A DNA stretch of 33,154 nucleotides, taken from Alphaproteobacteria bacterium (lineage in GTDB: Bacteria; Pseudomonadota; Alphaproteobacteria; UBA6615). The notes beneath the pieces were generated by a model. That model worked only from the letters and a program-made list of their open reading frames with translations, was not told the origin of the DNA and did not search any database. Location of the stretch: assembly GCA_027297685.1 (NCBI GenBank), contig JAPUHN010000093.1:1-33154 (forward strand), in the 5' to 3' direction. Shown one piece after another: positions 9,927 to 16,865 of this stretch (positions are counted from its first letter, which is position 1; every line of letters begins with the position of its first letter). The position numbers were made by a program, and so were the translations under genes.

Positions 9927-10110
9927 TCTGGTCGGCTCGATTGCGTTGTGGACTGCGTTGTCGGCTTGACGATTTGGCCCAAATGACCGTTTCAGCGCCT
10001 GTGGGACCGACCCTATAACGACCGGCGAGTCGCCGAAACCTGTGGAAAACGCCGCCGTCGGAGATAACCGGACAACATCTTCCAAACCACCCGATTATTA
10101 CCTATATATA

Positions 10111-10400
10111 GGGAGCCGGGTTCGCCCGGCTATGGTGATAAACGTCTTTCGCAATAAACGATGCGGACCCGGGGGCGGTACCCGGCGCCTCCACCATTAT
10201 CCCGGCCTCACCGGTGCGGATTTTTGGGGGCGAAATAGGATCGACGCGCGCGTAAAGGTCTGACTTTCTCCCGGCATGGTACCGCCGTTATCGGACCAAA
10301 ACTATAGGTGCCAACGATAATGTTGAGCCCATCGCTGTTGCCGCTTAATAAGCGTCGATAAGCGCGGTTCGGGGGGCACCGGGCAACAGAAGCCCCCCAC
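10111..10400 (+). ncRNA. ssrA: Transfer-messenger RNA, circularly permuted two-piece type
   Basis: tmRNA rescues stalled ribosomes and adds a degradation tag. The gene is permuted as in alphaproteobacteria: the acceptor piece comes first and ends in CGCCTCC-ACCA (10186-10196), then a 29-nt spacer, then the coding piece starting GGGGGCG at 10226. The two 7-nt strands pair as the acceptor stem, with one G-U. The T stem CCGGG/CCCGG encloses loop GGCGGTA, not the canonical TTC loop. The D-like segment CGAAATAGGATCGACGCG follows the 5' strand. CTTTCGC (10146-10152) can pair with GCGTAAAG downstream as P2. A 7-bp GC hairpin (10114-10131) opens the acceptor piece, and GGGGGGC/GCCCCCC (10371-10398) closes the coding piece. 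Outer ends are approximate. TATATA at 10104-10109 is a candidate -10 box. Confidence 0.93.
10310..10348 (+). other. tmRNA tag reading frame (ANDNVEPIAVAA)
   Basis: The resume codon GCC lies five bases after TA of CTATAGGT, as in other tmRNAs. The frame encodes ANDNVEPIAVAA and ends TAA TAA. ANDN is the part normally contacted by SspB and the terminal AVAA is a ClpX-type degron, so tagged proteins should be substrates of the adaptor encoded next door. Confidence 0.92.
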
Positions 10401-10497
10401 TTTCGCCACACCGGGGACCAATTAATTTGCGGTTGCTCACATATTCTGAGTGATTTCCGTTGACGTGCGAGGCGCACCGCGCTTCCATCATCCGGCT

Positions 10498-11025
10498 ATG
10501 ACCGATAACTCTCTCAGATACGATCGAATGGTCGAGGACGCGTTACGCGGGGTTGTTCGCACGGCGCTCGAAAACACGATCGAGCACGGTCTGTCCGGCG
10601 ACCATCATTTTTATCTCACCTTTAGCACCGAAGCTTCGGATGTCGTTATGCCGGTCTTCCTGCGCGATCGTTATCCCGAAGAGATGACGATCGTCTTGCA
10701 GCATGTATTTCGGGATTTGTGGGTTAGCGAGGACGCGTTCGGCGTTAGCTTGAGCTTCGACAACCAGTTTGTCGAATTAACCGTTCCTTTCGTCGCTCTG
10801 TCGGCATTCGTCGACCCTTCCGTCAAGTTCGGACTCCAGTTCAATGTCGAGGAAAGCGCCGACGCCTCCGGCACGAAGAAACAAGGTGGCAGCGTTCCGG
10901 CGATCCGCAAACCCGGTGACTTGGTTACGGTTCCCGAAACTGCGACAGCTGACAACGATACCGACGATGAAGCCGACAAACCGACCGCCGAGGTCGTCAA
11001 CCTTGAGACGTTTCGTAAGAAATAA
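10498..11025 (+). CDS. sspB: SspB-family ClpXP adaptor (alphaproteobacterial type)
   Basis: 175 aa. SspB binds the SsrA tag and tethers tagged proteins to ClpXP. The folded domain is about residues 1-120: LRYDRMVEDALRGVVRTAL, HHFYLTFST, VVMPVFLRDRYPEEMTIVLQ, then FGVSLSFDNQFVELTVPFVA and FVDPSVKFGLQF. An acidic, flexible linker follows, and the C-terminal peptide VVNLETFRKK is the conserved segment that docks on the ClpX zinc-binding domain. The start is MTDNSLRYDR; an upstream in-frame ATG (10450) would reach toward the tmRNA and is not family-like. It begins about 100 bp after the end of the ssrA gene, which encodes its ligand. A divergent or shared transcription unit is possible but not shown. 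Confidence 0.93.
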   Translation: MTDNSLRYDRMVEDALRGVVRTALENTIEHGLSGDHHFYLTFSTEASDVVMPVFLRDRYPEEMTIVLQHVFRDLWVSEDAFGVSLSFDNQFVELTVPFVALSAFVDPSVKFGLQFNVEESADASGTKKQGGSVPAIRKPGDLVTVPETATADNDTDDEADKPTAEVVNLETFRKK

Positions 11026-13151: not shown

Positions 13152-16100
13152 TTACCGGTTGCGCAGCAAGTCATCCAACAAACCACGGAATAGCTCGGCT
13201 GGTTGCGGCGGCGGGGCCGGTTGGCTGCCTGAACTGTCTTGCGGCGCAGGCGCCGGTTGTTGTTCGATACCGGGTATCAGCTTGCGCAAGATCGATCCCG
13301 CCGATTTGCCAATTATGTACTGTTGAACTTCGTTCGAATTGACCAGCCGCGTATTCGGTGCATCGAGCCGGCCTTTCTCCTCGACGATGACGCCTGGAAA
13401 CTTTGGATGTTCGGGAAAAAGCGTCCTGGCTTGAATATCGACCAGCCATCGCGGCAGGTCCACTTTACCGGCGAAATCGATCGTCGCACAGTCGGCGATG
13501 ATTCTCTGCTGCGGCAACGTCGCGACGCCTTTGGCGATATCGAACCGGCCGGCGTAATTGGCAATTTTCGTAGTGCCGCCTTGCGCCGACAGCAACAAGC
13601 CGAGAAATCCTTCCAAGCCATTTAGATTGCCCAGTTGCTTGCTGATCCGGCAGACATCGACCCCTTCGGCGACGGCATTGGTGAATGTCACGTTCCCCGT
13701 GCCCGATAACGCGCCGATCAATTCGCGCTCGCTGCGGCCCTGCGACGCCACGTCGATTTTGGCGTCGAGGGTGCCTGAGGCAAGCTTTACACTCGACACC
13801 GGAAACAGCAGGTCGAGAACGCTCATCACGCCGCGGCCCTCTTGTCCCGCCGTACTGGTGAGCTGTGCCGCGTCGGCACCATCGATGTTCAGTACATATC
13901 TCAGCGACGGCACTTTCCTATCCGCCAATTGGCCGGTCATGTTGAACGCCCCGCCATAGGCTCGACCGGACAATTCGTCGAGATCGAGAACGCCGTCGGC
14001 GAGCGTCAACGCGACCTTCGGGTTATCCACTTTCAAATTGGTGTAGGTGATCGCCGGCGCGGTTAGGACGATATCGGCATCGACTTTGCGCAACGCTGAA
14101 AAATCGAGCCGTTCGCGCGACCAGCGCTCGCCGGTCGCCTTGGCCCGGGCGGTTTGCCCGGCCTTGCGCGAAGATGCGCCCGACGAACCGGCCGCGGGTG
14201 TTGATCTTTTTCGCACCGGCAAGAACCAATCAACGATAATTTCACTTGTCTTCAGTTCGCCAACAACCTTCGGGCGCGCACCGCCGAGCGCCACACTCGC
14301 GTTGCTCTCGAACGCCACAGGCCCTGCGTTGCCTTTCAAATCGTCGACGCGTAGCGTCGTCGGATCGAACGCAAAGTCGCCGGTAAACTTCAATGGTCCC
14401 AGCTCCGCCAACGCCGGTTTATAGCCCGGTAAAAATAAGCGAACAGCCTGGGCAAGGTTGGGGTGGTTCGCTGAAACCGCCACGCCGCCGGTCATCTGTT
14501 CGCCGCCGATATCGGATATCGTACCTTTGACTGCCAGCGAACCCTCGCCGATGCTAACGCCGGCATTCAATTCACTTTTTGCCAGGCTACCGACCACTGC
14601 GGCAGCCACCCGCAGGGCGGCGGGCGGGCGCCCCGTTTTTCCATCCCTTCCGCCGCCGCCGATACGCGATAACAGCGTTCCCGCATCGGCGTGACGCAAA
14701 TCCAGGTTGACGTCGAATCGCGGTTTGCCGGTTAACGAGGCCACCTTGCCCTTGATCGTAAGCTTGGCCTCAAGCGCGGCCAACGTCAGGTCCAGATCCA
14801 GAGCTTCGAGATTCCCCTTGACCGAACCTTGCAACCGGCCGGGACCGACGGCAAACGACGGCGCCGTTCCCAGCATCTGCAACAGGCGGTCGGAATCATT
14901 GGCACCAATATCGAGTTTGAGATCGACCGTGGGCGCCGAGGTCGCCAGGCCCTCGATCCGTCCCGACGCTTTGACGCGCGCACCGGCGAGACTTTTCACC
15001 GATGCGTCACGGAGAACGAGGGCCCCCGCAGTAAGCGTGCCATCGATGTTGACGCCTTGGATGCGCTTGCCCCGGTAGGTCAGAGATCCGGCTTTGAGCT
15101 GTACTACGGAATCGAAACGATCGAGGAAACCCAGACCAACTGCGCCCGACAGTGCCGACCCGGCGCCGCCAGCCACTTTGCCGGCAGGTTTTTGCGCGGC
15201 GTCAGCACCACCGGGCGGGGAAGATTTCTCGGCCACCGGAAGATATGCGTCGAGATTGAGTTTATCGAGCGACAGGCCGATCCCCAGGCCGAGTCGTTTG
15301 CGCAACGCAACCGCGATGCCGCCACGCACCCGCGACCCATCGATGCCGAGATCGATGTCGGTTATGTTCAGCTGATCGGGCACGCCATCCACTTTGGCGG
15401 TCAGCGCTAATTTGCGCAGGCGATCCAACGGCACTGCCGATACGTCGACGCCAAGCCACGCCAGCAAGCCGCGCAGATCATCGGCATTGGCTTCACCTTG
15501 GCCGCCAAATGCAGGAACGCCGTCGCGCGCCGCAACAAATCCGAACAGGGAAACATCGGCGCTGCCAGGTAATTGCGCGGTTAGTTGCGACACAGTCAGC
15601 TCGCCATCGGCCAGTTGCGCATTCAGCGCGGCTTGGCGAATAACCCCGCCGCGGTAGAGAACCGCATCGATCTTGGCCTCGACCGTCGCATTGAGAGAAT
15701 CAGGCAGCGAAAATTCTGCAGCGGCTTCCGATGCCGGTCCGCCACCGGTCTGTCCCGCCGCCCGGCCGTTCTCGCGCGTAGCGCCGGAGCGGACAGTCGA
15801 ACCGCTGTTCTTGCTCGCCGCCGATCGAATATTCGTCAGCAGCCGGTCCAGATCGAGTTGTCCGACGTTCAGGATCACGTCGATCGCGGGCGTCTCGCCC
15901 AAGCTGATGTTAACGGCGCCGGTGGCGTTTATATCGCCCAACCCGACCGATAAATTATTCAGCGCGACAGCCTCGCGGTTTGCAGTCAAATCGCCCTTGA
16001 TCGCCAGCGGTGAGGCATCCAAGGCGACCGGTGCGGTTTGACCAGATACTGTGGTGATCAAACTCGCAATATCAGCCGCCTTGCCGTCGATTTGGCCGGC

Positions 16101-16865
16101 GATGCGGGGTTCATTTGGAAACCCCGACAGGACCCCGGAAAAGGTGACCTCGGCATCTTCGACGCCGATGGTCACACTAACCGGGATCGCCCGGTCGGTT
16201 TCCAATTTGCCAATCGCAGCGCGCAGCCGTGCCGGCACGCCGCGCACAACCACATCTCCCTCGGCCCGGAACGGACCGACTAGCGAGGCCGCCCCAAACG
16301 AGGCGTTGATACCTTCGAACCGTTCGACCATATCGGGACTGCGAAATACGATCGTGCCGCCTCGTACAATCAAATCGTTGAGTTGTATTGACCGCCCGAA
16401 TCCGCCGGAACCATTTGCCGACCCGGTCGCGGCTGCACCATCGCGATCGGAGGTTCCCGAAACACCACTCGGTTGGGAGGGCGCAAACGTCCAGTTGTTA
16501 CTGCCATCGGCGAACTGTTCTAGTTCGAACACCGGTTCGACTAGCACCACCCGCTCGATCTCGATGTTGCCGCCAAACAGCGGTCCCAGCGCGAGTGCGA
16601 CCTGAGCCGATTTGAGCCGCAATATGTCGCTGGCCTGCGCCCCATCGATATTCGACACCCTGAGGCCGGAAACAGACACGCCTGGCGCCGGTAGCAGTGT
16701 GAATGAAAGGTCGCCGTCGATGACCACATCGCGGCCAGTCGCCGCGCGAACCTGCTCGGCAACATCCGCTTTTAAAGAGTCGGCAGGTATAAACCGCGGA
16801 CCAACAAACGCAGCCGCAACCAACACGACAAGCAAGGCAACGATACCGATCAGAAACTTGCGCAC
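13152..16865 (-). CDS. AsmA-family protein (giant envelope protein)
   Basis: 1237 aa. AsmA-like proteins are inner-membrane-anchored, mostly periplasmic beta-rich proteins related to bridge-like lipid-transfer proteins, and they influence outer-membrane assembly. A transmembrane helix (LIGIVALLVVLVAAAFVG) occupies residues 5-22. AsmA N-terminal features follow: ATGRDVVIDGDLSFTLLPAP and VSVSGLRVSN. Repetitive glycine/serine-rich linkers and beta segments fill the middle. The C-terminal AsmA domain shows SGTLDAKIDVASQGRSE, LIGALSGTGNVTFTNAVAEG and GGTTKIANYAGRFDIAKGVA. The tail is Pro/Gln-rich and then QPAELFRGLLDDLLRNR. The start is GTG with a strong SD. No partner gene lies beside it. Confidence 0.93.
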   Translation of the reverse strand: MRKFLIGIVALLVVLVAAAFVGPRFIPADSLKADVAEQVRAATGRDVVIDGDLSFTLLPAPGVSVSGLRVSNIDGAQASDILRLKSAQVALALGPLFGGNIEIERVVLVEPVFELEQFADGSNNWTFAPSQPSGVSGTSDRDGAAATGSANGSGGFGRSIQLNDLIVRGGTIVFRSPDMVERFEGINASFGAASLVGPFRAEGDVVVRGVPARLRAAIGKLETDRAIPVSVTIGVEDAEVTFSGVLSGFPNEPRIAGQIDGKAADIASLITTVSGQTAPVALDASPLAIKGDLTANREAVALNNLSVGLGDINATGAVNISLGETPAIDVILNVGQLDLDRLLTNIRSAASKNSGSTVRSGATRENGRAAGQTGGGPASEAAAEFSLPDSLNATVEAKIDAVLYRGGVIRQAALNAQLADGELTVSQLTAQLPGSADVSLFGFVAARDGVPAFGGQGEANADDLRGLLAWLGVDVSAVPLDRLRKLALTAKVDGVPDQLNITDIDLGIDGSRVRGGIAVALRKRLGLGIGLSLDKLNLDAYLPVAEKSSPPGGADAAQKPAGKVAGGAGSALSGAVGLGFLDRFDSVVQLKAGSLTYRGKRIQGVNIDGTLTAGALVLRDASVKSLAGARVKASGRIEGLATSAPTVDLKLDIGANDSDRLLQMLGTAPSFAVGPGRLQGSVKGNLEALDLDLTLAALEAKLTIKGKVASLTGKPRFDVNLDLRHADAGTLLSRIGGGGRDGKTGRPPAALRVAAAVVGSLAKSELNAGVSIGEGSLAVKGTISDIGGEQMTGGVAVSANHPNLAQAVRLFLPGYKPALAELGPLKFTGDFAFDPTTLRVDDLKGNAGPVAFESNASVALGGARPKVVGELKTSEIIVDWFLPVRKRSTPAAGSSGASSRKAGQTARAKATGERWSRERLDFSALRKVDADIVLTAPAITYTNLKVDNPKVALTLADGVLDLDELSGRAYGGAFNMTGQLADRKVPSLRYVLNIDGADAAQLTSTAGQEGRGVMSVLDLLFPVSSVKLASGTLDAKIDVASQGRSERELIGALSGTGNVTFTNAVAEGVDVCRISKQLGNLNGLEGFLGLLLSAQGGTTKIANYAGRFDIAKGVATLPQQRIIADCATIDFAGKVDLPRWLVDIQARTLFPEHPKFPGVIVEEKGRLDAPNTRLVNSNEVQQYIIGKSAGSILRKLIPGIEQQPAPAPQDSSGSQPAPPPQPAELFRGLLDDLLRNR

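Follow-up and report, generated by a model that had tools for sequence, protein, structure and literature searches.

In most families of the Alphaproteobacteria the permuted, two-piece gene for tmRNA (ssrA) stands immediately upstream of the gene for the SspB adaptor (sspB) on the same strand, a pairing that lies far beyond chance and very probably represents an ancestral alphaproteobacterial ssrA-sspB locus encoding a functional pair. We describe this locus starting from a window, by which we mean the whole analysed stretch of 33,154 nucleotides from an alphaproteobacterial genome (assembly GCA_027297685.1, contig JAPUHN010000093.1). Its components are already known, and the locus is an unremarkable representative of established families; the arrangement of the two genes is a conserved and apparently undescribed feature of the class. 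That the pairing is kept in most families suggests that the genes for the tag RNA and for its adaptor are inherited as a working unit.

The original prediction, made from the letters of the window, placed a permuted two-piece ssrA with the tag ANDNVEPIAVAA at 10111-10400, and a search with the alphaproteobacterial tmRNA covariance model of Rfam detects the gene over the full length of the model (RF01849 alpha_tmRNA, 10076-10401 on the forward strand, 274.6 bits, E 3.8e-79, model positions 1-355 of 355). A second Rfam model, RF04321 tmRNA_permuted, matches the core (10134-10348, 155 bits), and ARAGORN likewise predicts a permuted tmRNA (10104-10439) carrying that tag, so that the gene, its permuted layout and the tag are all borne out. 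The predicted coordinates were right to within a few tens of bases, with a 5' end at 10111 that omits a promoter-like stretch included in the Rfam model. In both the alignment and the sequence the acceptor piece precedes the coding piece (Table 1), and the acceptor stem is formed by pairing of 10186-10192 with 10226-10232, the latter being the 5' acceptor strand GGGGGCG. This stem carries a G3-U70 pair (G10228-U10190), which marks alanine tRNAs and acceptors, and the tag frame delineated by ARAGORN ends in a hydrophobic AA. The window additionally contains an RNase P RNA gene (RF00010, 30654-31049 on the forward strand, 311.7 bits) about 20 kb away from ssrA; RNase P trims tmRNA precursors.

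Some 100 bp further along this strand the original prediction placed an alphaproteobacterial sspB, and this gene is likewise recovered: the frame opening at 10498 matches the Pfam SspB profile (PF04386) over residues 11-167 with 136.6 bits (cut-off 27), and its ATG follows the end of the RF01849 model by 96 nt. Both checks that could have overturned the prediction, the tmRNA covariance search and the SspB profile match of the frame at 10498, came out in its favor. Pfam was used for the protein calls in place of NCBIfam, in which no model was found for the SspB or TfoX_N proteins of the window. The best solved relatives are 2QAS and 2QAZ ('SspB Protein') and 2NYS (AGR_C_3712p), with E-values from 1e-27 to 1e-28. 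Most family representatives of SspB have a C-terminal tail of the (V/I)VxL(D/E)xFRKK type, which, by analogy with the E. coli SspB, is predicted to dock on ClpX. The pair is flanked upstream by the divergently oriented thyA and folA, and downstream by genes for a TfoX_N protein and for fumC on the sspB strand. Further along the window, the gene for an AsmA-family protein of 1237 aa (13152-16865, reverse strand) is overlapped on the opposite strand by several open frames, each 100-190 codons long, of a kind common in G+C-rich DNA.

Table 1. Features of the ssrA-sspB locus, in coordinates of the window
Feature	Position	Strand	Basis
Promoter-like element of ssrA: CTTCCA (10079-10084), 18-nt spacer, TATATA (10103-10108)	10079..10108	+	read from sequence
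ssrA acceptor piece: T arm, 3' acceptor strand, encoded CCA (10194-10196)	10110..10196, 5' end approximate	+	RF01849 alignment; ARAGORN start 10104
Intervening segment, absent from mature tmRNA, about 29 nt between CCA and 5' acceptor strand	10197..10225	+	RF01849 and RF04321 alignments
ssrA coding (mRNA-like) piece	10226..10401, 3' end approximate (ARAGORN 10439)	+	Rfam, ARAGORN, sequence
Tag frame ANDNVEPIAVAA (10310-10345), then two TAA stops	10310..10351	+	ARAGORN coding part; sequence
Promoter-like element before sspB: TTGACG ... GCGCTTCCATC, TTGAC starting 38 nt before ATG	10460..10489	+	family alignment
sspB, alphaproteobacterial SspB (SspB-alpha) adaptor, 175 aa, start ATG 10498	10498..11025	+	PF04386; PDB relatives
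SspB C-terminal tail EVVNLETFRKK, candidate ClpX-docking motif	10990..11022	+	tail type kept in family representatives

How common such an adjacency might be had been left as a question by the original prediction, and a survey of the class now supplies the answer. Our sample comprised 387 genomes, with SspB in 356 and the alphaproteobacterial tmRNA in 370, and one genome was then examined for each of 140 families having both genes. In 100 of these families ssrA directly precedes sspB on the same strand, within 600 nt of the SspB match, and a further 14 keep order and strand at a distance of 0.6-10 kb. The two genes fall on different contigs in 19 families, where their arrangement is not visible, and are clearly separated in 7; these 7 families retain both genes, indicating that linkage is not required. 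Within the taxonomic order of the window (24 genomes, one family) ssrA is the gene directly preceding sspB, in the same orientation, whenever both are intact on one contig, and named genomes from another collection, among them species of Bradyrhizobium, Methylobacterium, Reyranella, Dongia and Inquilinus, agree. Side-by-side placement of the two genes is the rule in the Alphaproteobacteria and no peculiarity of the source genome.

The tag and the adaptor also co-vary. Among the distinct tags of genomes with SspB, an N-x-N motif is present in 129 of 133 and an ANDN start in 104 of 133, as against 3 of 12 and 1 of 12, respectively, in lineages without SspB; since SspB has been lost in only about four clades, this co-variation rests on few independent losses and is suggestive. 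The absence of SspB from those lineages held on a recheck with a profile of divergent alphaproteobacterial SspB. The comparison leaves out families f48 and f69, which have a non-permuted tmRNA. ARAGORN tags from three loci (L142, L205 and L246), bearing no likeness to those of relatives, were discarded as wrong calls. All 21 tags read from the window's family start with ANDN and vary in the remainder. The small-genome families f26, f40 and f84 (1.2-1.4 Mb; genomes G048, G062 and G106 and their relatives, loci L210-L229) have kept the permuted tmRNA; SspB is not detectable in them, and their tags are mostly devoid of ANDN.

Certain tags, including those of loci L243, L325, L374 and L198, are 20-32 residues long and contain two or three N-x-N motifs, and many of these come from small-genome families; ANDNVSTVAANDNVFVEAGEKIAA and the two-motif ANDNAQFVAANDNFVVEGDIAIAA are examples of such repetition. 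Among 25 long tags, with at least 16 residues each, the pattern [AVICG]-N-x-N occurs 39 times versus 8.2 in shuffles, and past the first six residues 22 times versus 4.0 (maximum 13 in 5000 shuffles), although these figures overstate the certainty because the pattern was picked after some of the long tags had been seen. We tentatively propose, with a confidence somewhat short of even, that tag and adaptor evolve together in alphaproteobacteria as linked partners, in which (A)N-x-N would be the adaptor-binding part of the tag, kept along with SspB and decaying upon its loss. By the same proposal, several small-genome lineages would have extended their tags to hold two or three copies of the motif, which could allow a single tagged protein to contact both protomers of an SspB dimer.

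The adjacency could in principle be an inherited order without function, in which ancestral neighbors were seldom separated. Both the families with the two genes apart and those with 0.6-10 kb between them, neither gene having been lost, are compatible with this possibility, as is the verdict of a 2007 study on Sinorhizobium and its relatives, which found both neighbors of the tmRNA gene to be conserved and judged their functional association uncertain since smpB lies 1.1 Mb away (PMC2245857). As a control, the window's other neighbors were sought in the sequence around sspB in the other 139 families, with flanks of about 0.6 kb upstream of ssrA and 1.5 kb downstream of sspB, so that near neighbors only were counted. 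We found fumC in 26 of the 139, always downstream on the sspB strand, and thyA in 17, always upstream and divergent; both have been lost from the vicinity several times more often than ssrA, and plain gene-order inertia is hence a poor explanation. Moreover, the products of ssrA and sspB are expected to meet physically via the tag, unlike those of thyA or fumC, and we regard functionless inheritance as improbable. A different proposal, to which we attach very little weight, is that the PF04386 protein of the window's lineage is not the tag adaptor and serves other substrates, so that the pairing has another reason. SspB proteins do have other partners in some bacteria, and the tag of this lineage is unlike that of Caulobacter crescentus after ANDN; however, ANDN is invariant in the window's family and N-x-N has mostly gone where SspB was lost. 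The original expectation that SspB serves this tag finds support in its family membership, its conserved tail and the co-variation of N-x-N with SspB.

It is also conceivable that the pairing is kept mainly as one transcription unit, with an sspB devoid of its own promoter being expressed by read-through from ssrA, and with the 3' stem of the tmRNA, a partial terminator, controlling how much tmRNA is made relative to adaptor. Several class-wide features of the 100 adjacent families point in this direction. Promoter-like scores are elevated upstream of ssrA (8.46 versus 7.38 in shuffles), where most relatives in the window's family share a CTT...TATAT pattern, and rise only slightly above shuffles between ssrA and sspB. 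Even with the most conservative, that is the most downstream plausible, sspB start the gap is below 40 nt in 21 of the 100, too short a stretch to hold a promoter of sspB's own, though one inside ssrA is possible. A T-run directly follows the last 3' stem of the tmRNA in 31 of the 100 versus 4.9 expected, suggesting that this end may be a partial terminator in some lineages, and a scan of the window detected no terminator-like site between ssrA and sspB. On the other side, only three T follow the tmRNA stem in the window, and most members of its family have a fixed TTGAC...GCGCTTCCATC element in front of sspB, its TTGAC starting 38 (once 36) nt from the ATG (9 of 18 by the strict pattern, about 13 with variants; mean 0.008 and maximum 1 in shuffles). 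The start codon follows the second box by 7-9 nt, and the element is most naturally read as a separate promoter that gives a leaderless mRNA; it is this alignment that demotes full dependence of sspB on read-through to a rival, which we consider rather unlikely. Across the class TTGAC at -25 to -55 before sspB is in weak excess (5 families versus 1.2 expected). A sigma-70 scan, with boxes corresponding to the E. coli consensus, recovered no promoter at either ssrA or sspB of the window, and the comparison of relatives was the more informative approach. The suggestion of the original prediction that the adjacency could allow co-regulation of tagging and degradation stands in part: roughly one in five adjacent families has a short gap, which favors a single transcription unit there, whereas the window's family has the promoter-like element before sspB. 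Judged from these sequence features, co-regulation via a single transcript is a plausible option for some lineages and a doubtful one for that of the window.

Apart from the divergence of the tag noted above, the system resembles that of Caulobacter crescentus in its permuted tmRNA gene of the RF01849 type and in its PF04386 SspB, which aligns over residues 4-120 (E about 1e-28) with 2QAS and 2QAZ, structures that we take to be of the Caulobacter SspB-alpha. The Caulobacter SspB assists the degradation of tagged proteins. The SsrA/SspB pathway in Caulobacter is named in a published account (PMC8119881). With Escherichia coli, where all of these are established, the locus shares a tagging RNA and, by prediction, an adaptor with a C-terminal ClpX-docking tail and delivery to ClpXP, but the tmRNA there is in one piece, in contrast to the permuted two-piece gene found here. 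In E. coli sspB belongs to the sspA-sspB operon and is unlinked to ssrA. The E. coli ssrA gene instead adjoins smpB (PMC2245857). For Sinorhizobium meliloti, a 2008 paper gives the layout SMc01449(-) ssrA(+) SMc01450(+) (PMC2573895), placing ssrA between a divergent gene and a same-strand gene as in the window; the product of SMc01450 is not stated in that paper, and the likeness drawn here is one of layout. A 2025 paper on a tmRNA database makes no mention of SspB (PMC11915505). No paper stating the class-wide pairing was found in the searchable literature, and several classic papers lie outside it, so novelty is unproven.

For the functional pair that we favor, we infer the following course of tag binding, delivery, expression and selection for linkage. 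The permuted ssrA would have a promoter of its own, and its transcript would be processed into the two-piece tmRNA, which, when charged with alanine, would rescue stalled ribosomes and add (A)ANDNVEPIAVAA to the unfinished protein. The folded domain of SspB-alpha would then bind ANDN, the N-terminal stretch of the tag, and its C-terminal VVNLETFRKK tail would dock on ClpX, enabling tagged proteins to reach ClpXP efficiently. Joint function is the likely reason why the two genes have remained neighbors in a constant order and orientation. Lineages in which the gap is very short probably, in some cases, make a shared ssrA-sspB transcript, while in the lineage of the window sspB most likely has a promoter of its own and a leaderless mRNA.

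The tmRNA/SspB system is usually described from E. coli with its unlinked genes, and a pair that extends across the class links the tag and its reader genetically. It revises the published remark that the functional association of tmRNA with its conserved alphaproteobacterial neighbors is uncertain, and adjacency to ssrA offers an easy guide for locating SspB-alpha in divergent genomes. The co-variation of tag and adaptor makes the locus a useful test bed: the tag data provide a direct test of which residues are read by the adaptor, and the lineages without SspB, together with those having repeated N-x-N motifs, constitute natural experiments on adaptor recognition.
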